From positions 1-32,476 of IMG/VR virus record IMGVR_UViG_3300028802_000047: a stretch of DNA of 32,476 bases; one strand, written 5' to 3'. This DNA comes from a virus. Below the pieces are notes generated by a model. That model was not told the DNA's origin. It saw nothing but the letters and a program-made list of their open reading frames with translations, and searched no databases. Made by a program: the position numbers and the translations under genes. Of this stretch, positions 6,130-25,421 are shown piece after piece (within the stretch, counting starts at the first letter, position 1; each line of letters opens with the position of its first letter).

Positions 6130-6298
6130 CGGCTGTCTCCTTTTCGATCGGTGTCCACGATTTCATCTGTTCCCATTGCTGGGTTTCCTTGTTCCACTCC
6201 AGGCCGTGGACCTTGCCCAGTAGTTCAATCGCTCTGGCGTGCTCGTGGAACACTGTCGTCATCGCGTTCAAGATGTTCGCTATTTTGTCGGCTATCAT
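6122..6298 (-). CDS. 58-aa helical protein downstream of the fibre gene
   Basis: The frame starts within the fibre stop (ATGA) and ends 8 bases inside the next gene. It encodes MIADKIANILNAMTTVFHEH, then a Trp-containing segment (LEWNKETQQWEQMKSWTPIE), total 58 residues. It is soluble, helical and charged, with no membrane span. Tight overlaps on both sides and sensible amino-acid use support a real gene. It may be a fibre-assembly chaperone because small proteins immediately after a fibre gene often are; this is inference. Its 3' part carries the AAGGAG ribosome-binding site for the next gene. Confidence 0.7.
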   Translation of the reverse strand: MIADKIANILNAMTTVFHEHARAIELLGKVHGLEWNKETQQWEQMKSWTPIEKETADG

Positions 6299-7551
6299 TG
6301 CAGTTTAATAATCTCCAAGGTTGAGCCCTTCAGAATCTTCAAGTCAGTGGCGCTCGATGTTTGTTGGCTAAACTGGAGTTGCAGGTTCCCGGCAGTGACC
6401 GAGTTAGTCACTATAGCATAAAGTAGAACACCGTTTGTAACTGCACCAGTGCCCATCTCTAGTGTCTCGGTTTCCTCAAGCAGGGCGGGAGGCGTGGCGT
6501 TGAGCGCCACCGGAGCCCAATAGGCATCAACGATGGTGTCGGCATTAGCCACGGTCGGCAGCGGCCCCCACTTAATGTCGCAGCTCGCCGGATAGGTCCA
6601 GCCTATCTTTAAGTCGTGGGTGGTGTTGGCACCGAGAAAATGCAGGTAGCCTTTGACCAGATATTGTTTAAGCGCCTCGACCGGGAACACTAAGTCGGTG
6701 ATGTTTTGCAGTGTGGTGTTGGATTGTGTCGCGGTCTGGTCGGCGGTCTTGACAACGTAGCTCGTGGTTCGGCTGTAGAAATTTACCCGTGCCTTCTCAG
6801 TCCCGTTGATCTTGAAGATATGCTCGCCCGCGCCCTTGGTGTCGTAGTTCACATTGATGTCGGTGTCGCTGCCCTCGGCGTCGATGATGACCCCGCTACC
6901 GCTTGCCACCGAGCCACTTATGGCGACACGGTTGACAGCAGAGGCAACGCGTTTCACTGCCACGCCATCAGTGCCGCCCGGCTGTAGGAGAATGGACCCC
7001 GCTACTTGTGAGCGTAGGCGCAAATCAACATCGGTGTCGGAGCCCGCCGCCTCGATGATCGGCCCCTCGGCTGTAATGGCCGGGGTGACGTTGGCATAGT
7101 TGACGGCGCTGGCGAGCGTGTTCACGAGCAAGCCGCGAATGTTGCCTGGGCGGAGCTCCGCTGTTGCGGTGTTGACGTTGAGGCCGCGAAGCGAATCGGT
7201 GGTAAGGTCCACGTTCCCCGCGCCGCTGGAGTAAAGCCCCGTGTTGGTGTCCCCGGTAAACCCTAGCGACGGTACGGCTACAGTGCCCAGCCCTAGGCCG
7301 GTGACGATGAACCCGCCCGCGTTTAAGTTGCCGGTGAGAGGATTAATCAGCGATAGCGCATTCAGGTAAATATTATCGAACTCGGCTTCGAGCGCTGAGT
7401 CAGTTAGCACGTCGCCTGCGTTCCAGTCCGTCAATCTCGTTAGGGCGCAGAGAGCTAATGGCCCGGCGTACTCGAAGCTTTGAGCTTCGACAACGCTCCC
7501 GCTCTCAATGTCGATACTTACTCTTGTATAAATTTTCTTGGGCGATGGCAT
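6295..7551 (-). CDS. tail fibre/tail protein
   Basis: The 418 residues combine an N-terminal region with ALTRLTDWNAGDVLTDSALE and INPLTGNLNAGGFIVTGLGL. The GDTNTGLYSSGAGNVDLTTD stretch is very common in phage tail-fibre shafts. Tandem beta repeats follow (about 125-250, with AAGSDTDVDLRLRSQ and DAEGSDTDINVNYDTKG) and a beta-sandwich C-terminus (about 265-418). Only two cysteines and no signal peptide, so it is assembled in the cytoplasm, unlike the three exported proteins. It abuts the hub gene (TAAATG) and overlaps the following 58-aa gene by ATGA, which suggests the small protein could be its assembly partner. Confidence 0.8.
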   Translation of the reverse strand: MPSPKKIYTRVSIDIESGSVVEAQSFEYAGPLALCALTRLTDWNAGDVLTDSALEAEFDNIYLNALSLINPLTGNLNAGGFIVTGLGLGTVAVPSLGFTGDTNTGLYSSGAGNVDLTTDSLRGLNVNTATAELRPGNIRGLLVNTLASAVNYANVTPAITAEGPIIEAAGSDTDVDLRLRSQVAGSILLQPGGTDGVAVKRVASAVNRVAISGSVASGSGVIIDAEGSDTDINVNYDTKGAGEHIFKINGTEKARVNFYSRTTSYVVKTADQTATQSNTTLQNITDLVFPVEALKQYLVKGYLHFLGANTTHDLKIGWTYPASCDIKWGPLPTVANADTIVDAYWAPVALNATPPALLEETETLEMGTGAVTNGVLLYAIVTNSVTAGNLQLQFSQQTSSATDLKILKGSTLEIIKLQ

Positions 7552-10304: not shown

Positions 10305-12428
10305 TCAAGCCTGTTGAATCCCAGGGTTAACCACGGTCAAAGTCGGGTAGACGGTGTAGGTATCAAACGGCGTGGCCCCGTCCTTAATCATGCGGAAGCG
10401 AATCGTCGTGCCGACCGCGACGCTCGAATCAACCTTGATGCCATACTCGCACTCTGTCTCGCTGTCTTGGCTCAGGTCTATCAGCGGCACCGCCGAGGAT
10501 GTCAGCACCACCGCGCAGGCAACATTGGTTGATAGATCGCTGGTCAACTGTTCGGTGGTCGGTGTCGTGTTGGTGACGCCAAGCGCCATGCCCGCGCCGA
10601 CCGCGCACACTACCGTTGATGCCGAACAGGTATCTGTCCAGGTTGACCAGCTCCCGCTGCTATTGAGATCGTATTGTAAGGTCGGGTTAAAAGCTGCCGG
10701 ATCTGCGGTGGTTGCCTTGGCTTTTATCCTCACCCGCGCCGCGCCACCGGGAATGATCGTGTAGGCGGTATCAACCGCCGCCTTCCAATCGGAGACTACA
10801 GCCACTTCAGCGCCGTAAAGATTCCTGATGCGCCCATGGGTTTGAGTAGCTACCGACGCGCTTGGGCCGCTCACCGTGTTGGTGCAGGGCGTTGACGTCA
10901 CCGCGTTTAACCGCTGATTGTGTGAGTTGCCGACCAGGGACGAATCGCTGGCGGTGCCGGTGGTCGCATAGGTAAGATCGCAGCTCGTGCCTGAGCCGTA
11001 GTTGATCGTGGTGGTAAATTCCAGCACGCTGCCGCCGCCCAAAACCACCGGCCCGGTAAACGCCTTGGCCCCGCCCGCTTCCAATGGACTCCAGCCGGTG
11101 GCAGACGGTGCCAGCACAGGCGGTGCAACGTTGTTGGCGACATTACACCGCAGCTTGTTGGCCGCTACGTCGCCTACATTGCAGTTAGCTATGCCCCAGG
11201 TTTCAAACGCGCCGATGTCGGGAGCCGCACCGTTGTAGGGTACAGTGATGGTTCCGCTAAGAGGCGCGGGAAGTGGCGCGATAGATGCTATGCCTACATT
11301 GATAGCCGCCGAACCTGCCTGTAAGTTCAAGTCGGTGCTAGAGACAAACAGCGGGTTGCCGACTATATCGCAGCCGGTGCCAGCGGCGTTGCAAAGGTTG
11401 TGTGAGCGTGTCGCCGTAGCGGTTATCGGCGTGCGAGATGCGTTGCTAACGATGTTGTTTTTGGCAACCGTTGTCAGCCCGCCTGCATTGGGGTCAATGT
11501 AAATGCCGTCCAGCGTTACGCTATGGATCGAGTTGTTATAGATGATATTTCGGTACGCGTATGTGCCGTTGCAGATGCCGCTCGATGAGCTATTAAAAAT
11601 CTCATTACGAGTGATTAGGTTGTCGTCACCGTTGTTAAGAGTGATCGCGCATGAGCGCTCATCGCCCTCGCCGTAGTTATAAAACCGATTCCTACTAACA
11701 ATATTCTTGCTTGGGTACGGCCCGCCGCCGTTAAAGTGGATACCCCAGGACGGAAAATCATGGAATGTATTGCCGCTGATAATCGAATTTGAGCCGGAAA
11801 AATAAAGTGGATACCCCCAACAATGGATCTGGCCACAACTGGTGCCGTCGTCGCCAAACTCCCCCGTGCCCTTGGTAATAGTGTTGTTGAGTATTTCTAT
11901 ATGGTCGCCGTCGCCCAACATCCCGTTGGTGCTATTGTTAGTGATGGTATTATTTTGGAAACGAAGATACCGCGACGGTATGCAACAATCGCTGCTGTGA
12001 ACACTGGCCGAGCCTGTACTGTTGACACCATCGAAGATGAAGCCCTCCACGATTGCGTATTGTGGGAAAGATGACGATAGCTGAAGGATGCCGGTGCTGG
12101 TGCCCCGAAGTGTGACCGTATCACCCGACTTAGCCCGAAAAGTAAACGGCGCGGCCCATGACGTACCGCTGGGAAAGCGCGTGCCGCCGTCTATATATTG
12201 CAAGAACCCCGTGTACGTGCCCGCCCATACCTCAACTACGTCATTGGCACCGTCACCCTGAGTCGTGCCGACGCACGCCAGGGCAGCGGGAATGTTTGGC
12301 GCGGCGGTGGTGCTGGTTTGATATTGAGTGCAGTTAGCTCCCGTGCCGCCGACCCTGACGTACCAAGTCACGGCGTTAGCCTCTGCGGCAAACAGCATCA
12401 ACAGTGTAGCGAATAAAATCTTTCTCAT
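10305..12428 (-). CDS. exported beta-helix protein with Sec signal peptide
   Basis: MRKILFATLLMLFAAEANA is a Sec signal peptide with ANA cleavage after residue 19. The mature protein starts TWYVRVGGTGANC and contains a right-handed parallel beta-helix (about 50-370, pectate-lyase/NosD type) with repeated Asn-rich turns such as NNTITNNS and ISGNTFHDF. The C-terminal 300 residues form beta-sandwich modules. Many cysteines, often in pairs, fit disulfide formation outside the cytoplasm. A good AAAGGGA ribosome-binding site precedes the ATG. Lyase residues are not evident. Its TGA stop is followed in the same frame by 47 open codons. It is the last of three exported proteins; surface glycan binding or degradation is plausible. 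Confidence 0.8.
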   Translation of the reverse strand: MRKILFATLLMLFAAEANAVTWYVRVGGTGANCTQYQTSTTAAPNIPAALACVGTTQGDGANDVVEVWAGTYTGFLQYIDGGTRFPSGTSWAAPFTFRAKSGDTVTLRGTSTGILQLSSSFPQYAIVEGFIFDGVNSTGSASVHSSDCCIPSRYLRFQNNTITNNSTNGMLGDGDHIEILNNTITKGTGEFGDDGTSCGQIHCWGYPLYFSGSNSIISGNTFHDFPSWGIHFNGGGPYPSKNIVSRNRFYNYGEGDERSCAITLNNGDDNLITRNEIFNSSSSGICNGTYAYRNIIYNNSIHSVTLDGIYIDPNAGGLTTVAKNNIVSNASRTPITATATRSHNLCNAAGTGCDIVGNPLFVSSTDLNLQAGSAAINVGIASIAPLPAPLSGTITVPYNGAAPDIGAFETWGIANCNVGDVAANKLRCNVANNVAPPVLAPSATGWSPLEAGGAKAFTGPVVLGGGSVLEFTTTINYGSGTSCDLTYATTGTASDSSLVGNSHNQRLNAVTSTPCTNTVSGPSASVATQTHGRIRNLYGAEVAVVSDWKAAVDTAYTIIPGGAARVRIKAKATTADPAAFNPTLQYDLNSSGSWSTWTDTCSASTVVCAVGAGMALGVTNTTPTTEQLTSDLSTNVACAVVLTSSAVPLIDLSQDSETECEYGIKVDSSVAVGTTIRFRMIKDGATPFDTYTVYPTLTVVNPGIQQA

Positions 12429-12437
12429 AGAATCCCT

Positions 12438-13211
12438 TTAGTGCAACATCATTACGCCAATGGGGCGTCTTATGGCTGCGTCCGACTCTGACTGTTGGGC
12501 TATCGCGGTCAGCTCGCCGCTGGTGATGGCGCGGTTATAAAGCCGCACGTCATCAACAATGCCGTTGAAATAATTGTTGGGCGTACCGTCAGCGGAGCCC
12601 GAGCCGATTAAAAACTTTTCAGTCGTATGCTGCGGTATGGTGCTATCGGTGAGCGTGGCAACCTGCACATCGTCCACATACACCTTCCAGGTTGTGCCGT
12701 TAAAAATGCACGCGATGTGATACCAGACCCCGGTGGAGAGCGGATCGCCAAATAGGCTGTATTGCGCGATGTGCTCCACGCCCGCCGCATAGGTGCCGCA
12801 TTGCAGTAACGGGTCGCCGCCGCCCTGAATGAAGCGTAGAAGGTATTGAACCTTGTCAGTGCCGCTTGAATACCCCTTCCCTAAGATTACAAATTGGTGT
12901 CCTGGGGCTGTCGGCAGTGTGGTTGGATTGACCCATACGGTGATTGATAGATTGCCGGTGATGTCAACCGCCGTATCGTCGGTGCAGTCGGCGTACTCAG
13001 ACGATGCCGAGGCAAAGCTAAGCGAGCTGACGCCAACCTTCGGCGCTGACCATGTGGGTGTATTGACGAGCGTGCAGTCGTTGGTGCCGCTGCCCGAGTC
13101 CACCGCGACGGTGCCGGTGTTGTCGTCCATCTTCGCCCAGAACACCGGATCGACCACGGCATACGCGGGCGTTGCAATCAGCAGGCTTAATATTAGGGCT
13201 AGGTATCTCAT
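12438..13211 (-). CDS. exported LamG-domain protein with Sec signal peptide
   Basis: The N-terminus MRYLALILSLLIATPAYA is a clear Sec signal peptide ending in AYA (predicted cleavage after residue 18). The mature 239 residues form one LamG/ConA-like jelly roll: VDPVFWAKMDDNTG, then SLSITVWVNP-like and WYHIACIFNGTTWKVYVDDV segments, and the closing IVDDVRLYNRAITSGEL. Four cysteines are present. LamG domains bind glycans or proteins, so outside the cytoplasm it could coat the cell surface, bind envelope sugar or act as a released decoy. It is the middle of three signal-peptide genes, starts within the preceding stop (TAATG) and ends 9 bases before the next start. Confidence 0.8.
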   Translation of the reverse strand: MRYLALILSLLIATPAYAVVDPVFWAKMDDNTGTVAVDSGSGTNDCTLVNTPTWSAPKVGVSSLSFASASSEYADCTDDTAVDITGNLSITVWVNPTTLPTAPGHQFVILGKGYSSGTDKVQYLLRFIQGGGDPLLQCGTYAAGVEHIAQYSLFGDPLSTGVWYHIACIFNGTTWKVYVDDVQVATLTDSTIPQHTTEKFLIGSGSADGTPNNYFNGIVDDVRLYNRAITSGELTAIAQQSESDAAIRRPIGVMMLH

Positions 13212-14881
13212 TAATCTGAGCGTGATCCTTTTGAGTATTCGAGCTTGAAACCCAGCATGTGGAGAGTCGCCACCGCCGTAGTTGTTCCCGTGGCGTCAAG
13301 CTGCCAGCGAAATTGCAGGAGCATACCGCCACCTGTACAGGTTCCATTGGGCGTGATCGCCGCGGTTGTTACCGTGTTGATAGCGTTGGAGCCGGTCATG
13401 TTGGTAATGTCCATGGCGACTTCAGTGCCCCAGGTATTATTGATTGTGGTCGGCGCGGCGCGGCAGGCCATCGCTACGTCACTATTCATGGCGCTGGTAT
13501 TGGCGGCAGTCTGGACAAACATGCCCATGAGCGTAACGGTCCCACCGTCCCAGCTATCCGGCATCGCCACCTCGCCGTAGATGGTTGACGAATCGTTGTC
13601 GGCGCAGATGATCGTCCAACGCTTGGACCCTGAGTTGATGGTGACTTCGCCGGGTGCCGCGCATTGCGTGCCATCGGTGGAGAGCGCACCGGCAGGCCAG
13701 TAAACCGAGCCCTTGGGCTTGAGCGCGTTGTAGCTATGGACACCAGCGCTGGTTATCGTTTCGGCGGTGACGCCGTTCAATTTAAGTATCCAGTTGAAAG
13801 TATCAGCGACGTTCTCGATATGATCGCACTGGTTATAAGTGTTGCCGCTGACGTTGTAGCACTGCGTCACGATGCCGTCCGATGCATCGCCATGGACGGA
13901 CAGTTGCCAGTTGGTGTCGCCAATCTTGACCGATGTGGCCGTGCTGGTGGCTGTGGTGTCGGTGCGGCCCAAGGCCAGCACGTTAGCCAATGTCTGGACT
14001 TCAGCCGGTGATAGATCGGTCGCTACGCCGTTGGTGCATTTCTTGAACTTGGTTTCCGATAGGTCGGCAAAGATGTTGTAATTACCAGCCGCGCATGTGG
14101 GGTTGGTGTCGGACTCCTCGAACTCGATGCCGAGATTGTCTGTAATGAGCTGGCCGGTGAGAGTGCCGCCAGCGAGCGGCAGAACCGCAAAGCAGGACTC
14201 CACCGCGCCACTAGCGTCCACGCCCAGCGGAGCCGAGCCCGCGCTACAATTCGCACCGTTGGCGGCTAGGGCTGTTGATGTCGAGGCGTTGCCGACGACA
14301 CCGCCCGTCACAGTCAAAACATTAGTTGCTTTGTTAAAGGTCATCCCGGCATCGCCGCCGAGATTGCCACCATCGTTGAATTGCACTTGCGTGTCAGCGC
14401 CGCCTGGCGTTGCCGTGATCGCGGTACAGCTTTCCACTGCTCCCGAGGCATCGACGCCCAGCGGATAATTGCCCGCGGTACAATTCGCACCGTTCGCTGC
14501 CAATGCGGAAGCAGTCGAGGCGTTGCCACTGAGCGCACCGGCAACCGTTCCCACCGTGAGTGTGTCGGTCCCGGCGTTGTAGGTCATGCCAGCGTCACCG
14601 GCAAAAGCGCCAACTGAATTGTATTGCACCTGAGTGTCAGCCCCGCCCGGTGTACCCGAACCGCCCGTACCCGATGCAGCGCTAACCCAGGTTGAGCCGT
14701 TGTAAACGTACAGTCCGGCGCTTCTGTCCACAGTGGTTGTCGTCTGCCCGCAATAGGTTGAAAGCGCTACCGGCTCAAGCGTGTTACAGTCGGTGCGAAA
14801 GAACAGGCCGACATCTTGGGCCTGCGCAGATGTGGCAAACAAGAGCAGCGTGAGTGAAAGAATGGTCAGGATTATTTTCAT
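13211..14881 (-). CDS. exported tail-fibre-like protein with Sec signal peptide
   Basis: The first 21 residues (MKIILTILSLTLLLFATSAQA) have the form of a Sec type I signal peptide: a Lys start, a hydrophobic core and an AQA cleavage end. The mature part has two copies (about 78-152 and 159-230) of a fibre module containing GGADTQVQ and GVDASGAVESC. Then come LPLAGGTLTGQLITDN, a motif common in phage tail fibres, and a beta-rich C-terminus. Cysteines come in pairs (32/44, 134/152, 212/230), which fits disulfides after export. A signal peptide on a fibre-like protein is unusual because fibres are normally assembled in the cytoplasm. It is coupled to the next gene by TAATG. Confidence 0.8.
   Translation of the reverse strand: MKIILTILSLTLLLFATSAQAQDVGLFFRTDCNTLEPVALSTYCGQTTTTVDRSAGLYVYNGSTWVSAASGTGGSGTPGGADTQVQYNSVGAFAGDAGMTYNAGTDTLTVGTVAGALSGNASTASALAANGANCTAGNYPLGVDASGAVESCTAITATPGGADTQVQFNDGGNLGGDAGMTFNKATNVLTVTGGVVGNASTSTALAANGANCSAGSAPLGVDASGAVESCFAVLPLAGGTLTGQLITDNLGIEFEESDTNPTCAAGNYNIFADLSETKFKKCTNGVATDLSPAEVQTLANVLALGRTDTTATSTATSVKIGDTNWQLSVHGDASDGIVTQCYNVSGNTYNQCDHIENVADTFNWILKLNGVTAETITSAGVHSYNALKPKGSVYWPAGALSTDGTQCAAPGEVTINSGSKRWTIICADNDSSTIYGEVAMPDSWDGGTVTLMGMFVQTAANTSAMNSDVAMACRAAPTTINNTWGTEVAMDITNMTGSNAINTVTTAAITPNGTCTGGGMLLQFRWQLDATGTTTAVATLHMLGFKLEYSKGSRSD
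14192..14650 (-). repeat. two tandem fibre modules within the exported protein
   Basis: Two direct repeats of about 75 codons encode the GGADTQVQ...GVDASGAVESC module. Both retain the Cys pair and the ALAANGANC segment, indicating duplication of a folding unit. Confidence 0.65.
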
Positions 14882-15630
14882 GCTAAAAGCGGCTCCGCGG
14901 TAACGATGTCCAAGTTTTGGCCGACCTGTGGCTCGACTTGATAGCGCACTTGAAAGCTTGTGTCGGTGCGCGTACGGTCAATCGGGACCACGGTCGTGTT
15001 CCATGACGGTGTGAAAAACGCATGAGTGAACCGGCCTTGATTGTGCGTAATCAAATCACTGCCCGCGCCCTGTACCGGATTGATGAACTGGCCTAGGCCA
15101 AACCCGTCCCAGCCAAATCCGTCCCGCACCATCGACTGGCTATCGGCGTTAAATCTCACGTAGCGAATCGTTCGCGCCCTGATCGGCTGGTTAGAGAACC
15201 CAAGCGTGATCGTGTTCGCGGCCTTCACCTTGGCGTAAATAGTCGTGTGCCAGTCGGGAGTGAATAGATAAATCGCTGTGGCGTCGTTCAAGTTGTGGGT
15301 GAGCGTTGCCGAGGTATCCGCTGCTGTCACCGACAAGCTCCCGCCGTAAACCGAGATGCGATAAGTGAGCGCGGCATTGAGTCCCGCTGCCGTGCCGAAA
15401 CGCACCTTGAATTGTGTCTCTGTAATCCAGTCGAGAAAGACTGTCGTATTCCAGTTGGGCGTGAATACGGGATAAATCGCTGCCGTATGAAAATAGTGAT
15501 CGAACACTTTTTCATAGCTGCCAGCGTCAATGCCGGTATTCATTACGGCGTATTCCTGCAACCCCTGGACGCGGCCCTGCTTGACCACGTTCAACAGTTG
15601 CAGTTTGGCCGGGGTGACAAAGCCGCTCAT
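14878..15630 (-). CDS. triple-module beta-rich structural protein
   Basis: The 250 residues contain three copies of an FTPxWxTTV motif (at about residues 56, 123 and 206). Each is followed by an alternating strand with the pattern TxTxFxVxF, and the last two are preceded by HNxN/HNQG. This points to three related small beta domains. Between the second and third is a Gly/Phe-rich stretch (DGFGWDGFGLGQF). No signal peptide. No known family is recognised; it is probably a structural or adhesin protein. It overlaps the following signal-peptide gene by ATGA, tying expression of a cytoplasmic and an exported protein together. Confidence 0.7.
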   Translation of the reverse strand: MSGFVTPAKLQLLNVVKQGRVQGLQEYAVMNTGIDAGSYEKVFDHYFHTAAIYPVFTPNWNTTVFLDWITETQFKVRFGTAAGLNAALTYRISVYGGSLSVTAADTSATLTHNLNDATAIYLFTPDWHTTIYAKVKAANTITLGFSNQPIRARTIRYVRFNADSQSMVRDGFGWDGFGLGQFINPVQGAGSDLITHNQGRFTHAFFTPSWNTTVVPIDRTRTDTSFQVRYQVEPQVGQNLDIVTAEPLLA

Positions 15631-17180: not shown

Positions 17181-17531
17181 CTATCTCCTTCGCCGCTTTA
17201 CGCGGGCCATGTTGTGGGTGATCTGCACAAAGTAACGTCGATGAATTCCTGCCGCCGCCTCGTCGGATGCTTCCTTGCCCGCGAAGCTGCCGTACATCAT
17301 CATGGGCAGGCCGTGCGGCCCATACTGAATTAATCGCGCCGGTGTGTGCGCTCCGTCGCTCGATGCCGACTTGGCTAAAAAGCTGTAGCGCGATAGCGGC
17401 AGGCCATGGGGGCCGTAGTGAGTAATCCGCCCCGGCGTGTGTGGCCCATCCGCCGATAGTTCCTTGCCCGCGAAGCTGCCGAACCGCCTGAGCGGTAATC
17501 CATGCGGGCCGTATTGTGTGATTCGAGCCAT
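17181..17531 (-). CDS. small protein with three tandem YGPHGLP repeats
   Basis: The 116 residues contain three near-copies of a 31-32-residue unit built on a RITxYGPHGLPL core followed by an aromatic FGSFAGK-like segment and DGxHTP. Copies are at residues 3-34, 35-65 and a shorter third at 66-90. A basic tail ends RVKRRRR. No known enzyme motif. The repeated conserved Tyr-Gly-Pro-His-Gly suggests a short beta-prism or receptor-binding repeat, or a trimeric connector. The reading frame with the protein-level repeats is preferred over a slightly longer overlapping frame (17155-17535). No good ribosome-binding site precedes the ATG, which diverges from the HNH gene start 42 bases away. Confidence 0.7.
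   Translation of the reverse strand: MARITQYGPHGLPLRRFGSFAGKELSADGPHTPGRITHYGPHGLPLSRYSFLAKSASSDGAHTPARLIQYGPHGLPMMMYGSFAGKEASDEAAAGIHRRYFVQITHNMARVKRRRR
17262..17525 (-). repeat. three tandem ~95-base coding repeats
   Basis: Direct repeats correspond to the YGPHGLP units of the 116-residue protein, with boundaries near 17525-17430, 17429-17337 and 17336-17262. Copies have diverged in sequence while the protein core is kept, indicating selection at the protein level rather than a recent DNA duplication. Confidence 0.7.
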
Positions 17532-19817: not shown

Positions 19818-20537
19818 TTACTGTTGAGCGTAGGCGTGATACGGCTTGCCGCCACCACCACCGACCATTGCCGCGTAGGTCATCCCCGCGCCGCCGTTGT
19901 AGAGGGAAGTGATGTCAGCGGGCGTGTCGAACAAATCCCGTTTATAAAAAAGCAACTGATCGATCATGCCGCCCCAGTAGCGCCCGCCGACTTGCTGGTT
20001 AAAGCCGATGTACAGATCGGCGTTGCTGTCTCTCACTCCCGCCGAGTAGGAAGCCGAGTCCACCGTCCCATTGTTCACGGAGCCCTTGAGTGTATTGCCG
20101 GTGGCGTTGTGCGAAACCACGACGAAGTACCAAGTGTTGTTCGTTGGGGTGCCGCCGCTGCTTAGTAAATGGTTGGTGTTGTTGTCTGCCGCATCCCACA
20201 CCCGAAAGCGGTACGCGCTGCTTGCCGGCGACCATTCCAGAAAATGCTCGCTCTGCGTGTTGGTCTTTGCGAACGCCGTGCAGGTTTGAGAGTTGTCGGT
20301 TACATAAAGCCACGCTGCGAATGAAAAACTAATGTCGCCACAACTGAGTAACGCGGTGTCAGCATGAACCAGCGACTGACTGCTGGCGATGACGAAATTC
20401 CCCGCATTGCCGACTTTGCCGCTGACAGAAGTGACCACGTTATTGTTGGTGAACGCGGTATTTTGGCCGGTGGCATCGGTGCCGATAGCGCCCGATTCGA
20501 ATTCGAGCGCCAAAGCGAGGTTGTCAGTTAGCGCCAT
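19818..20537 (-). CDS. LamG/ConA-like jelly-roll protein
   Basis: LamG-type domains bind carbohydrates or proteins. This 239-residue protein begins MALTDNLALALEFE and shows the typical run SQSLVH...FSFAAWLYV (residues about 53-78), then NTWYFVVVSHNA and GMIDQLLFYKRDL, the classic closing strands of a LamG_3-like jelly roll. There is no signal peptide. A Gly-rich tail (GGGGGKPYHAYAQQ) ends it. It is likely a cytoplasm-assembled virion protein, perhaps the head of a fibre or a capsid-surface adhesin. It sits 11 bases upstream of a small helical protein gene. Confidence 0.75.
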   Translation of the reverse strand: MALTDNLALALEFESGAIGTDATGQNTAFTNNNVVTSVSGKVGNAGNFVIASSQSLVHADTALLSCGDISFSFAAWLYVTDNSQTCTAFAKTNTQSEHFLEWSPASSAYRFRVWDAADNNTNHLLSSGGTPTNNTWYFVVVSHNATGNTLKGSVNNGTVDSASYSAGVRDSNADLYIGFNQQVGGRYWGGMIDQLLFYKRDLFDTPADITSLYNGGAGMTYAAMVGGGGGKPYHAYAQQ

Positions 20538-20541
20538 CTAA

Positions 20542-22386
20542 TCATGTCCAGTCGATGTCTAATTCGTCCACGTTAATCTCGCCGTTAGCGCCGAGCCTGC
20601 TCTGATCTTCAATCGGCACATTGGTGTCGCCGGTGCAGCGGATGAATACAATGCGGTCGTTAGCGCTGCCGGTACGCCAGCCGCCGGATGCCAGCCAGTT
20701 TGCGGGATCTATCGGGTCTTCATCGGCGCGGTTGAAGTTATCTAAGAGCGCCGTGGTCGCTGTCGCGCCGCCGCCAAAATCGTTGATGCTGGTGGTAGCG
20801 CCGAGAATATTTACCCCGACATAGCCAGCGCCCGTTACGCTTGAGTCCGTGCGTGTGGCAACCGACGCGCCGTTTTTATAAACGGTAAGCGTTGAACCGG
20901 CAGCTCTGAATTTCCACTCATCGTTGCTTGCGTGAGTGATCGTGATGTCAGCGCCGAGCTGCGTGTAGACGGTGCCGAGTCCTGCGGTTACGCTTTTGTA
21001 AATCTGCGCGGTGGTCGTGTTGACGAAGTAAAATTCATAGTGCGCGCTGTGCCTGTCGTTCACATCCTCGATTCTGATATTCAGCGAAAGATCGGTTGGG
21101 TTTGTGATCTTGGCGTAAACCTCTTGATCGGCTGCATAAGAAGTTCGCCAAGTGGCGTAGCTGGCCGATGCGCCACGGACACAAACATTGCCGACGACCT
21201 GCGGGGCAGGTTGCTCCACTGAATTAGGATAAATGTAGTAAGGCGTGCCGCAATTAAGAAATGTAACATCGGTGTGAGTGACGAGGGTTTTCTGCGCCGG
21301 TAACGCCCCTTGGGTGTGATTCGGCGCGGGATAGTACGCGCCAACCGCGGCACCATTGATGGTGACATTGTTGTAACGGATCTTATCGTACCAGCAATTA
21401 CCTCTTGGAGAGTTTGAAGCGTGGACGATTCCAAGCGATGCGCTGTTGCCGCCGCCGATTGACGCCGTGCCGGTGAGTACCAAGCTGCAATCGCTGGCCT
21501 CGAAGTTCTCGAAGCTGCCGACCGTTTGCTCGATATTGAATTCAAAAAGCATCGGCCCTTGGTAGCCGACGTGGGCCTCGCCAGCGGCTATATGAATGTT
21601 CTTGGCGTGGCCGTTCTGCCCCTTGCCTCCGTGCCAGTTGAGCCCACCTTCGTACATGCCGGTGATTTCAATGTCCTCTATCACCAAGCCGTCACAGCCC
21701 ATCTCATCCCATGGGGAAGGACGACCGATAAAGAAATCGCTGGTTAAGTTGATGCCCTCAATATTGTCGATTTTCAGATTGTCGCAATGGTAGTAAAGGT
21801 CGATTGCCGCGCTGCGCATGTCGGGCGATACCACCCTGTCGTGCTCAATGGCAAAGCCACTAATACGCACGTTCTCAATTCGCGTTAGCGAATCCTTGCC
21901 GATCATGATGGTGTGCGATGTACCCAGGCCATCGTTGATGTCATTAAGCTGTAGAAGTTTTGATGTGCCATCGGCATGACCGCGAAACCATAGGTCACTT
22001 CTTGCGATATTAGGCACCGCCGTAATCGTCGTTGTTCCCGATGGGAGAGTTACCACTGGGCCAAAGCTCTCATCATCGAGCGCGGCTTGAATGACAGCAG
22101 ATGTAGCACCGTCAGGAAGTTGGCCCGCAGCATCGCCGTCATCAGCTGAAAAAAAAACCCAGTCGGTGTTTGCGCCGTTGCGAACCCCTGCCCGTTCCAG
22201 GGTCGTATCCCACCACCTGTCCTTAGCGATAACACCGTTGGCGGCATCTAGTGCCGGGTCGGTGGCCTGGACGAAATCAACCCCGTGGCCGCGATGGGTG
22301 CCATCGGTTTTATGCTCGACGTTTAGATAGTCGAGCATCAACTGAGCCCACGGGTATTCGCCTATTTCTGGAAGTCGCGCCGTCAT
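20542..22386 (-). CDS. tailspike-like beta-helix protein with jelly-roll C-terminus
   Basis: Tailspikes bind and sometimes cleave host surface glycans. The 614 residues show an N-terminal region (1-110) suited to virion attachment. A right-handed beta-helix follows (about 110-390), marked by repeats such as NVRISGFAIEHD, NLKIDNIEGINL and GLVIEDIEITGM. A beta-sandwich of ConA-like jelly-roll type (about 405-540) contains GSTLTVYKNGASVATRTD and ends in INDFGGG. The last part restarts with LLDNFNRADEDP, which looks like the first strand of another jelly-roll cut short. Catalytic residues were not identified. It is the longest member of the adhesion block except for the exported 707-residue protein. 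Confidence 0.8.
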   Translation of the reverse strand: MTARLPEIGEYPWAQLMLDYLNVEHKTDGTHRGHGVDFVQATDPALDAANGVIAKDRWWDTTLERAGVRNGANTDWVFFSADDGDAAGQLPDGATSAVIQAALDDESFGPVVTLPSGTTTITAVPNIARSDLWFRGHADGTSKLLQLNDINDGLGTSHTIMIGKDSLTRIENVRISGFAIEHDRVVSPDMRSAAIDLYYHCDNLKIDNIEGINLTSDFFIGRPSPWDEMGCDGLVIEDIEITGMYEGGLNWHGGKGQNGHAKNIHIAAGEAHVGYQGPMLFEFNIEQTVGSFENFEASDCSLVLTGTASIGGGNSASLGIVHASNSPRGNCWYDKIRYNNVTINGAAVGAYYPAPNHTQGALPAQKTLVTHTDVTFLNCGTPYYIYPNSVEQPAPQVVGNVCVRGASASYATWRTSYAADQEVYAKITNPTDLSLNIRIEDVNDRHSAHYEFYFVNTTTAQIYKSVTAGLGTVYTQLGADITITHASNDEWKFRAAGSTLTVYKNGASVATRTDSSVTGAGYVGVNILGATTSINDFGGGATATTALLDNFNRADEDPIDPANWLASGGWRTGSANDRIVFIRCTGDTNVPIEDQSRLGANGEINVDELDIDWT

Positions 22387-23247: not shown

Positions 23248-23739
23248 CTAGGGCGCGACTCTCTCCGGCAACGCCGGATCGTTGATCTCAATAATTCTCG
23301 CTGGCACTCCCACGACTAAGGCGTAGTCGGGCACGTCATGCGTGACCACCGCGCCTGCTCCCACCATCGCGAATTTGCCAATGTAGATCCCCGGTAAAAT
23401 CGTTGCCCCTGCGCCGATGCTGCAATGGTAGCCAAGCGTCGGCGGTTCTGGCTTGTAATGGATATTTCCAGCCCGTGGATATTTGTCGTCTGTGCAAACA
23501 ACCCCAGGCCCCATGAAAACCATGTCGTCAAGCACTGAGTTGTTAGGTAGAAAGACGCCGTGCTGTAGACGACACCCGCGCCCCATTCTCGTGCCCCAGC
23601 CCACATAGGCGTTGCTGCCAATCACGCAGTCCTCACCGATCTCGGCAAACTGGCCGATGACCGCGCCGCTCCACACCTTAACGTTGCAGCCTAGCCTTGC
23701 GTCCTGTGAGACAACCGCTGAAGGATGGATATCTGGCAT
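23248..23739 (-). CDS. left-handed beta-helix acyltransferase, WlbB/PglD-like
   Basis: The 163-residue sequence consists of hexapeptide repeats (for example VIGSNAYVG, SIGAGATIL, YIGKFAMVGAGAV) that fold as a left-handed beta-helix. It ends in PDYALVVGVPARII, the hallmark end of sugar N- or O-acetyltransferases that act on nucleotide-amino sugars. The insert MVFMGPGVVCTDDKYPRAG (residues 73-91) matches the layout of WlbB/WbpD-type enzymes making 2,3-diacetamido sugars. It uses acetyl-CoA in known relatives and acts as a trimer in the cytoplasm. The partner glycosyltransferase is immediately upstream. Which sugar is modified cannot be told from sequence. Confidence 0.8.
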   Translation of the reverse strand: MPDIHPSAVVSQDARLGCNVKVWSGAVIGQFAEIGEDCVIGSNAYVGWGTRMGRGCRLQHGVFLPNNSVLDDMVFMGPGVVCTDDKYPRAGNIHYKPEPPTLGYHCSIGAGATILPGIYIGKFAMVGAGAVVTHDVPDYALVVGVPARIIEINDPALPERVAP

Positions 23740-24471
23740 CTATGCCACCTGCCGGATGTTATAAATTTTATCTTCGTGGCCCTTGTAGACCATCTCCGGT
23801 TCGTCCCAAATAATCGGCCCACGTGGCGTCATGTGGCCCGCGTACCAGCGGCCATTGAAACGCTGCGGTGTGACCGTGACGTTGGCGATATGGCCCATCA
23901 CTTGGTCACAGTCGATCCACACCTTGACACCCAGCTCGTGCATCCGGTTGATAAAATCCATGTCCTCGTTGACGCGTCCCGGCACTAACTGCCCAGCCCG
24001 GAACCAGGGATCGCCAAGCATATCCAATACGGACTTGCGAATAACCGCGCCCGCCTGCCCTGCCGAATCGCCCACCGGCAACTGGAACAATCCAGTGATC
24101 GGCAAGTCGAGCCATGAGTAGCGCCGCATGAGTTCGGACAACGGGCCGTGCATGAGCACGGGGACGAACGGCGAATCACGGCGCGGCACCACCGGCATGA
24201 CTAAATCCACTTCGCGGTCGAGGAGCTTCATTAGGATGTTGGGGTTGAACGTGTGATCGTCGCCAAGGATGAACACAAATTCCCCGCTCATCTTTCTGAT
24301 GCCTTCGTTGAACGCAAAAACGAAATCCGCCCCGCGTGTGTTGATGATGCGCGTGCCATGAGGCACCTGAAGCGCCTCGACGCACATCCAGAATTCCGAA
24401 TAACGGGCCAGGGACGCGCAGGCTATAACCACGGTCCCCGGCCCATGCTTCGTGTCGGTAATATGCTGCAT
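23740..24471 (-). CDS. GT2-like glycosyltransferase
   Basis: GT-A fold glycosyltransferases transfer a sugar from a nucleotide donor. In the 243 residues, an N-terminal strand (TVVIACASLA) is followed by GEFVFILGDDH (about 63-73), whose GDDH is the DxD-like metal/nucleotide site. EDMDF (169-173) with downstream GVKVWIDCDQVMGH is the acceptor-side motif common in GT2 enzymes. No membrane anchor is present. It is coupled to the preceding beta-helix gene by TAATG and touches the acetyltransferase gene (TAGATG), which suggests a joint role in decorating a virion protein or host glycan. Substrate unknown. Confidence 0.75.
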   Translation of the reverse strand: MQHITDTKHGPGTVVIACASLARYSEFWMCVEALQVPHGTRIINTRGADFVFAFNEGIRKMSGEFVFILGDDHTFNPNILMKLLDREVDLVMPVVPRRDSPFVPVLMHGPLSELMRRYSWLDLPITGLFQLPVGDSAGQAGAVIRKSVLDMLGDPWFRAGQLVPGRVNEDMDFINRMHELGVKVWIDCDQVMGHIANVTVTPQRFNGRWYAGHMTPRGPIIWDEPEMVYKGHEDKIYNIRQVA

Positions 24472-25421
24472 TATCCGCCGTTGACAGCACCGCCTGTGCC
24501 GCCCTGGATCGTGCCGAGGAAGTTCATGTTGACGATGACATCGCTAGTCGCTGTCGCTTCGCTCAAGTCACTTCCGACGCCGAAGTAACAGCGCATAATC
24601 CAAACGCTGTCATCGGTGGTGTTACCTGTCGAATCAACGATGTCGGTGAAAACCGCTCCGGTAGAGTTCACAAAATCGATGTCGCGAACTACAAAGTTCG
24701 TAACGCCAGTGGTGATCTCAACAACGTCATCCCAGGCTGTGCTACCAGCCAAAACCACCAAGCTGTTTTGCAACATGCCGCCGTCCATGCCAGCAGTCGC
24801 GGAAGCGGCACGCAGGAAAGGTCCCTGATTGTCGCTGACATAGACATATTGGTTGCTGATGCGCGGGCGCGGTGTCGCGCCGGTAACGCTGATACCAATG
24901 GTGTCGGTAGCAGCCGCGGTAGCCATAACCCACGTAATGTCGTGGATATTCGCGTCTGCCGCTGCGCTGATCGCGATGCCGGTGCCGCTGATGATCGGAA
25001 CAATGTGCAGGTAGGCGATTTCGACGCGGGCAGCGGTCACGGTAAACACCGCAGTCGCAGCCGCCGAAGTCGTCACCGCCGCATCGTATCGCGTGGTGCG
25101 CGTGCCCCGTGCCGCGGGATCAATCGGTCCACCGGGGATGCCAAAAACTTTCACGCCCGCCTTGCTAAGAGTCTGCGTTGTGCTCCAGCTATGGGAGCCG
25201 GGCAGCAGCAGGATAATATCGCCAACGTCGGCGGTAGCGAGTGACACCGCAGCATTGACGGTCAGCAACGCACGCTCGGGCGATAGCCCATCGTTGTCAT
25301 TGCTGGCGGCATAAGAACGGCCTTCGAGCGTATAGGTTGCCGAAGGCGCGACGAAAAACTGGCGTCCGGTCATGAGGGCGATGTCGCCCCAGCCGGAACC
25401 CCATTTTGTTAGATAACCCAT
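24471..25421 (-). CDS. parallel beta-helix (pectate-lyase-like fold) virion protein
   Basis: This 316-residue protein has the entry motif SNDNDGLSPERALLTVNAAV (residues 40-59) followed by GDIILLLPGSHSW, the pattern that begins many right-handed beta-helix proteins. Repeated short strands and Asn/Thr turns then run to the C-terminus. No catalytic residues of a lyase are evident, so a structural or glycan-binding role is more likely than an enzyme. It starts after a strong GGAAGGAG site. Its TAA overlaps the glycosyltransferase ATG (TAATG), so the two are probably made together. It could be a head fibre or a tailspike component; the position right after capsid genes slightly favours the former. 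Confidence 0.65.
   Translation of the reverse strand: MGYLTKWGSGWGDIALMTGRQFFVAPSATYTLEGRSYAASNDNDGLSPERALLTVNAAVSLATADVGDIILLLPGSHSWSTTQTLSKAGVKVFGIPGGPIDPAARGTRTTRYDAAVTTSAAATAVFTVTAARVEIAYLHIVPIISGTGIAISAAADANIHDITWVMATAAATDTIGISVTGATPRPRISNQYVYVSDNQGPFLRAASATAGMDGGMLQNSLVVLAGSTAWDDVVEITTGVTNFVVRDIDFVNSTGAVFTDIVDSTGNTTDDSVWIMRCYFGVGSDLSEATATSDVIVNMNFLGTIQGGTGGAVNGG

Follow-up and report, generated by a model that had tools for sequence, protein, structure and literature searches.

A conserved and exchanged cassette of fibre-, LamG- and beta-helix-type phage genes with predicted Sec leaders

The virus record IMGVR_UViG_3300028802_000047 from IMG/VR, analysed over its full length of 32,476 bases (the window), is classed as linear and is probably a fragment. 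Its minus strand carries three adjacent genes, numbered 1 to 3 in the order of transcription and collectively called the trio, which code for a fibre-like, a LamG and a beta-helix protein (Table 1). The genes are tightly packed, with overlaps of 4 nt between gene 1 and its upstream neighbour and of 1 nt between genes 1 and 2, and with a gap of 9 nt between genes 2 and 3. A promoter scan of the trio, which covers the sigma-70 consensus type only, gave nothing above chance.

Table 1. Positions of the trio genes and their features in the window. A slash marks the predicted cleavage site.
Feature	Position	Strand	Description and evidence
Gene 1, fibre-like protein, predicted to be exported	13211..14881	-	Open reading frame (ORF), 556 aa; leader score 4.55; 14 Cys in mature part
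Gene 1 predicted Sec leader, 21 aa (...SAQA/QDV)	14819..14881	-	MKIILTILSLTLLLFATSAQA/QDV
Gene 1 first paired-Cys repeat, ALAANGANC(18)C	14426..14506	-	Cys spacing of 18
Gene 1 second paired-Cys repeat	14192..14269	-	ALAANGANCSAGSAPLGVDASGAVESC; Cys spacing and IMG/VR motif search
Gene 1 conserved C-terminal domain, ~170 aa, predicted beta-sandwich	13214..13726	-	Alignments, AlphaFold2 (AF2), Foldseek
Gene 2, LamG protein, predicted to be exported	12438..13211	-	257 aa; 4 Cys; leader score 4.95; PF13385
Gene 2 predicted Sec leader, 18 aa (...PAYA/VVD)	13158..13211	-	MRYLALILSLLIATPAYA/VVD
Gene 2 C-terminal tail, RRPIGVMMLH	12441..12470	-	Resembles RRPIAPM/ARPIxPIxFQ ends in other carriers
Gene 3, beta-helix protein, predicted to be exported	10305..12428	-	707 aa; 18 Cys; leader score 4.61; PF13229
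Gene 3 predicted Sec leader, 19 aa (...EANA/VTW)	12372..12428	-	MRKILFATLLMLFAAEANA/VTW
Gene 3 right-handed beta-helix, residues 20-328	11445..12371	-	AF2, Foldseek, PDB profile matches
Gene 3 conserved C-terminal domain (TECEY domain)	10323..10763	-	39% identity to L002 over the domain

Export leaders, paired cysteines and predicted folds

A first-pass annotation of the window, made from the sequence alone, had described three consecutive Sec leaders ending in AQA, AYA and ANA. Their coordinates, reading frames, lengths and leaders could all be confirmed. Leaders were detected with a home-made scorer for n-, h- and c-regions, applied with a lenient and a strict threshold. While the trio proteins reach scores of 4.55-4.95, the remaining 28 likely genes in this stretch yielded no leader with the scorer. 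A score of 4 is reached by 7 of 729 ORFs of at least 120 aa from 73 phage loci used as controls, and none of these loci has two adjacent leader ORFs. The cleavage sites (AQA/Q, AYA/V and ANA/V) have no cysteine at position +1, so that the trio proteins lack a lipobox and are not considered to be lipoproteins; a recognised surface anchor was not found in them either.

The leaders extend to a wider family of fibre-type proteins. A DNA-pattern search of IMG/VR for the gene 1 repeat (NC-x-AG-xx-PLGVDASGAVExC) yielded 85 stretches, which include the N-terminus of 60 paired-cysteine ORFs. A leader is present in 58 of these by the lenient and in 51 by the strict threshold, while only 29 and 18 of 594 control ORFs pass the same tests. 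The next gene downstream also bears a leader in 20 of 37 cases. As leader rates in the control loci and control ORFs are far lower, chance hydrophobic N-termini were rejected as an explanation, and export of the trio through the Sec pathway is very likely. No paired-cysteine-type match was found in 50,697 phage records, where gene 1 instead matches a common fibre repeat that is present in cyanophage proteins, and INPHARED contains no cultivated relatives apart from such fibre-repeat matches.

The cysteine totals of all three proteins are even and none of the cysteines lies within a leader. Those of genes 1 and 3 far exceed the two cysteines of a 418-aa fibre in the window, with which the first-pass annotation had contrasted the cysteine pairs of these two proteins. 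An even count was found in 29 of 31 mature trio-type proteins. Among leaderless ORFs of the same loci that contain two or more cysteines, 203 have an even and 144 an odd number (58.5% even), so that the parity appears to be far from chance, even if its true significance is below that of a simple binomial test. Trio-type proteins mostly contain ~13-29 cysteines per 1000 aa, compared to a mean of 9.4 in the leaderless ORFs (n=619). A similar difference exists in a set of 66 complete proteins that contain the DTQVQFN fibre repeat, where the 8 with a leader average 13.4 cysteines per 1000 residues and the 57 without a leader average 3.0 (Mann-Whitney p=0.003).

The earlier assignment of a fibre repeat, a LamG jelly roll and a beta-helix was borne out by matches to phrog_9942 for gene 1 (E=2.7e-6), to Laminin_G_3 for gene 2 (PF13385, E=1.8e-24, 87.1 bits versus a gathering cut-off of 27.6) and to PF13229 for gene 3 (E=2.1e-14). 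The structure models are modest, with mean predicted local distance difference test (pLDDT) scores of 48 and 53, because long linkers remain unmodelled, and therefore only the confident domains were interpreted. For the C-terminal domain of gene 1 (pLDDT ~50-87), Foldseek lists ligand-binding domains of Eph receptors first, but also the carbohydrate-binding modules CBM15 (1gny) and CBM61 and the Nictaba lectin; the domain is thus predicted to resemble carbohydrate-binding modules and lectins. In the PDB, gene 2 is distantly matched by an arabinanase domain and by an S-layer protein. The helix of gene 3 resembles lyases of polysaccharide lyase family 6 (PL6), AlgE4 and tailspikes according to Foldseek, and AlgG and PL6 according to weak PDB profile matches, but no PL6- or epimerase-specific Pfam match was obtained. 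Taken together, the predicted folds suggest glycan binding or processing. LamG and beta-helix folds alone do not imply export, since the window also codes for leaderless proteins that were read from the sequence, rather than from curated family matches, as LamG-like (19818-20537) and beta-helix-like (20542-22386 and 24471-25421).

Conservation, exchange and diversification of the cassette

A search for the trio in related phages had been proposed earlier, and it retrieved the same gene order with leaders on at least 10 other phage contigs. The first relative, locus L002, was found with gene 1 and has three adjacent leader genes in the same order, with 44% identity to the window for gene 1 and 32% for gene 3. 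Further loci were retrieved via alignments of the C-terminal domains of the trio. The full order of a leader-bearing fibre, binding-domain and helix gene exists in L002, L082, L085, L087, L088, L089 (likewise in L090/L091), L096, L092 and L099/L083; the contig ends of L099 lie within its gene 1. L107, L108 and L113 have genes 1 and 2, and a third leader gene is present in truncated form in L107 and L113. Leader-bearing relatives of gene 1 occur in L002, L082, L083, L085, L087, L088, L089, L096, L092 and L098, and full-length relatives of gene 3 in L002 and L087-L089. Several leaders are below the cut-off of the scorer and were judged by eye (genes 1 and 3 of L085, genes 2 and 3 of L082, gene 1 of L098, gene 2 of L099).

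Leaders with cleavage-site motifs persist in relatives that have only ~30-45% sequence identity. Most carriers keep the C-terminal domain in gene 1 (33-83% identical to that of the window) and in gene 3, and the short C-terminal tail in gene 2; the TECEY domain was found in 6 IMG/VR loci. L098 has a divergent, cysteine-rich version of the three leader genes, the third of which lacks a Pfam match. This third gene (11360-15154) codes for ~1260 residues, 94 of them cysteines, and contains CxxDxxC-like repeats. Its DNVHFNTLGG stretch is SGNH-like, but an SGNH identity has no Pfam support.

The cassette lies between a phrog_2913 gene and a phrog_778 gene in L002, and is adjoined by lysis-type genes in L087 and L099. 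As the trio lies within phage gene runs on many contigs, an artefact or host contamination was rejected. One carrier, L092, is a contig of a proteobacterial metagenome-assembled genome (MAG). The exact paired-cysteine DNA motif is absent from all 395 genomes of the phylum of this MAG, but as the MAG itself lacks the motif, this result tests the repeat and not the trio. L099 contains a second run of three leader genes on the minus strand (10965-13527; 456, 249 and 149 aa); no other phage matching its 456-aa protein was found by search.

Gene 2 proteins of differing folds end in a [AR]RPIxPIxFQ-like tail in the window, L002, L085, L087, L089, L099 and L107. This conserved tail possibly has a docking role. 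Since L092 lacks both the tail and the C-terminal domain of gene 3, it was considered whether the former depends on the latter, but this is ruled out by L099, where gene 2 has the tail and gene 3 lacks the domain. The tail is not general to leader-bearing proteins (7 of 141 versus 5 of 1172 by a strict rule for the tail, mostly in gene 2).

The carriers comprise podovirus- and siphovirus-type phages, as far as the morphotype can be deduced from neighbouring genes, and they often have no other detectable gene in common. We thus regard the trio as a horizontally exchanged cassette. In an all-against-all comparison, the siphovirus-type phage G002, which has tape-measure, phrog_2913 and phrog_778 tail genes, shares with G003 only the trio proteins at E<=1e-8, with identities of 60, 82 and 56% for genes 1, 2 and 3. 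This corresponds to the accessory, horizontally exchanged nature of phage morons. The window shares only genes 1 and 3 with most other carriers; it additionally has in common a LamG-like protein, a small protein and part of a beta-helix-like protein with G003, and a capsid-like protein with G007. Because several carrier contigs are fragments, more genes may be shared than were detected. In G005 and G006, which form a close pair, seven flanking genes are 98, 95, 83, 69, 99, 89 and 95% identical while genes 1 to 3 have only 57, 26 and 39% identity. Sharing of the trio alone, together with its divergence beside conserved flanks, indicates that the cassette is passed from phage to phage and evolves rapidly. 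In this rapid change it resembles surface-interaction genes, judging from these comparisons.

Possible site of action and alternative explanations

The explanation that we consider best, though its probability stays somewhat short of even, is that the trio is exported and acts on glycans outside virion assembly, either released or within the envelope. The proteins of a late-expressed cassette would leave the cytoplasm via the Sec pathway of the host, lose their leaders, and acquire disulfide bonds while folding in the periplasm. Gene 1 would provide cysteine-stapled tail-fibre repeats with a terminal beta-sandwich of carbohydrate-binding type, gene 2 an interchangeable binding domain (LamG in the window) on a short conserved tail, and gene 3 a beta-helix of the polysaccharide lyase, epimerase or tailspike type. 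The trio would act in the envelope late in infection and, mostly, after lysis, when glycans of the host and its neighbours would be bound and perhaps processed, so that receptors and matrix are cleared or masked to the benefit of the phage. Among these inferences, export and oxidative folding are the best supported. Released or envelope-located glycan-acting proteins are also favoured by the exchange across phage types, by the additional fibre-type genes without leaders, by the absence of an anchor and by the lysis-type neighbours in L087 and L099.

Several observations weigh against this explanation. Gene 1 is composed of tail-fibre repeats, its N-terminal module is common to the siphovirus-type loci L002, L107 and L113, and its C-terminal domain is common across phage types, which is the usual layout of virion-attached receptor binders. 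No active site could be assigned in the trio proteins. The nominal probability of the cysteine parity is overstated because the proteins are related. Furthermore, leader-bearing paired-cysteine ORFs and those scored as leaderless, many of which are truncated, are equal in mean cysteine density (17.9 vs 18.7 per 1000), so that a higher density was rejected as a mark of the leader in this set; that most of the leaderless ORFs are truncated accounts for the lack of a difference.

The first-pass annotation had left a role in the virion aside and had proposed exported proteins that may coat the host surface, bind or cut glycans, exclude other phages or serve as decoys. While an exported set is supported, the fibre repeats and the sharing pattern of the two ends of gene 1 keep a virion role alive. 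The proteins might be virion fibres that mature in the periplasm, being exported and disulfide-bonded, and that dock on tails as receptor-binding or depolymerase spikes when lysis mixes the compartments. We regard this as rather unlikely, but it would account for the fibre repeats of gene 1 with their matches to cyanophage structural proteins, for an N-terminal module that is shared within and a C-terminal domain that is shared across phage groups, and for the location of the cassette inside tail gene runs such as that of L002. The diversification of the trio is like that of receptor-binding genes, the beta-helix of gene 3 resembles tailspikes, and the conserved tail of gene 2 could be a docking peptide. 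On the other hand, ordinary leaderless fibre-type genes are also present in the window (6295-7551 and 20542-22386), a single recombination tract can explain the sharing of the gene 1 N-terminus because the upstream gene is also shared in L002 and L107, and no described precedent was found in the papers searched. Slightly more doubtful still, by our estimate, is that tailed phages carry exchangeable three-gene cassettes for fibres which, after export and disulfide bonding in the host periplasm, do not attach to the virion until the cell lyses. If true, virion fibres would gain a route of oxidative folding that is unavailable to cytoplasmic assembly.

It is improbable, to a greater degree, that the trio is retained in the host envelope and serves superinfection exclusion or envelope remodelling by masking or altering the phage receptor. 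A precedent is Llp of phage T5, an exported protein with a disulfide that is encoded beside the receptor-binding gene pb5 (PMC9586334). The cassette is common to unrelated phages, perhaps of one host, and the weak match of gene 3 to choice-of-anchor Q (E=0.0028, below the cut-off) as well as the gene 2 tail are placed where bacterial surface anchors lie. However, neither a lipobox nor a recognised anchor is present, the trio proteins are several times larger than Llp, and their position in a virion operon without a recognisable sigma-70-like promoter of their own fits late expression, when exclusion helps less. We attach very little probability to inert or repurposed leaders on ordinary virion proteins that fold in the cytoplasm. 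The trio does lie among virion genes, and virion proteins with hydrophobic N-termini exist, but the retention of leaders and cleavage-site motifs at such low identity, the leaders on nearly all paired-cysteine ORFs and the even cysteine counts argue against it.

Relation to known systems and gene neighbourhood

Phage tailspikes and tail fibres, such as the Det7, CBA120 and Sf6 tailspikes and cyanophage structural proteins with YadA domains, have beta-helices and fibre repeats in common with the trio, and also its location among tail genes, its rapid diversification and its exchange of modules. The trio differs from them by its Sec leaders, its dense paired cysteines, its fixed set of three genes and its sharing between phages that have no other gene in common. 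Fibres and tailspikes are expected to be made and assembled in the cytoplasm and to have no export leader, while strong Sec leaders are predicted for the trio and its relatives, which points to export. According to one paper, target proteins of diversity-generating retroelements in phages do not have the leaders seen on bacterial targets (PMC6199706).

T5 Llp and Cor-type exclusion lipoproteins are exported phage proteins, as is predicted for the trio; they are encoded beside the receptor-binding gene, and Llp has a disulfide (PMC9586334). In the window, the trio precedes an adaptor-like gene (SU10_adaptor). However, Llp is a lipoprotein of small size whose receptor is defined, while the trio proteins have type I leaders, are far larger and look glycan-directed. 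The morons lom and bor of lambda-type phages code for proteins that are exported to the envelope. Like the trio they are accessory, horizontally mobile and located among late genes, but the trio is a fibre/LamG/beta-helix set for which no autonomous promoter was seen in the sigma-70 scan and in which no outer-membrane barrel or lipobox was recognised. Bacterial AlgG, PL6 lyases and choice-of-anchor Q surface proteins combine a leader with a right-handed beta-helix, and gene 3 has profile matches to AlgG and PL6; it differs in being phage-borne, in its conserved C-terminal domain and in that no catalytic residues could be established. Glycan-active genes have been described from uncultivated viruses, such as a chitosanase from soil viruses, a carbohydrate-active enzyme for which secretion is not mentioned (PMC9485262), but these are single enzyme genes, whereas the trio is a conserved set with export leaders and fibre modules.

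Exported phage proteins and tailspikes are thus each already known. The first-pass annotation knew of no described system of this kind, which held in our searches: an exported, disulfide-rich trio of fibre, lectin and helix proteins exchanged between phage types is not described in the phage records and open-access papers searched. The conservation of the leaders, the paired cysteines and the carbohydrate-type folds give good support to its view that the trio forms a coherent group of exported adhesins within a tail operon, and it is a real possibility that the mechanism is new in kind. Adhesins of tailed phages are regarded as components of the virion that are produced in the cytoplasm. The swappable trio and the wider family of leader-bearing fibres suggest that many phages invest in proteins that act extracellularly or mature in the periplasm, and the trio points to a largely undescribed phage action on sugars outside the infected cell. 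This would change the annotation of fibre-like genes in viromes and offers a testable handle on the dealings of phages with surface and matrix glycans. Sharing of the cassette among phages without other common genes suggests a host link, which could aid host prediction.

Along the minus strand of the window, the trio is preceded by a terminase-like end, a portal gene (phrog_1216), a capsid-like gene and a long block of fibre, lectin and sugar-related genes. Downstream, the adaptor-like gene is followed by a tail-type gene (phrog_3287), a fibre gene and genes for internal-type proteins. The nine C at positions 1-9, the start of the record, are probably an assembly end effect. A 116-aa protein (17181-17531) has three copies of a unit like RITQYGPHGLPLRRFGSFAGKE. 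At 23248-24471, genes labelled from the sequence as left-handed-helix acyltransferase-like and glycosyltransferase-like lie within the virion gene run, and this pair suggests that the phage may carry out a glycan modification of its own.

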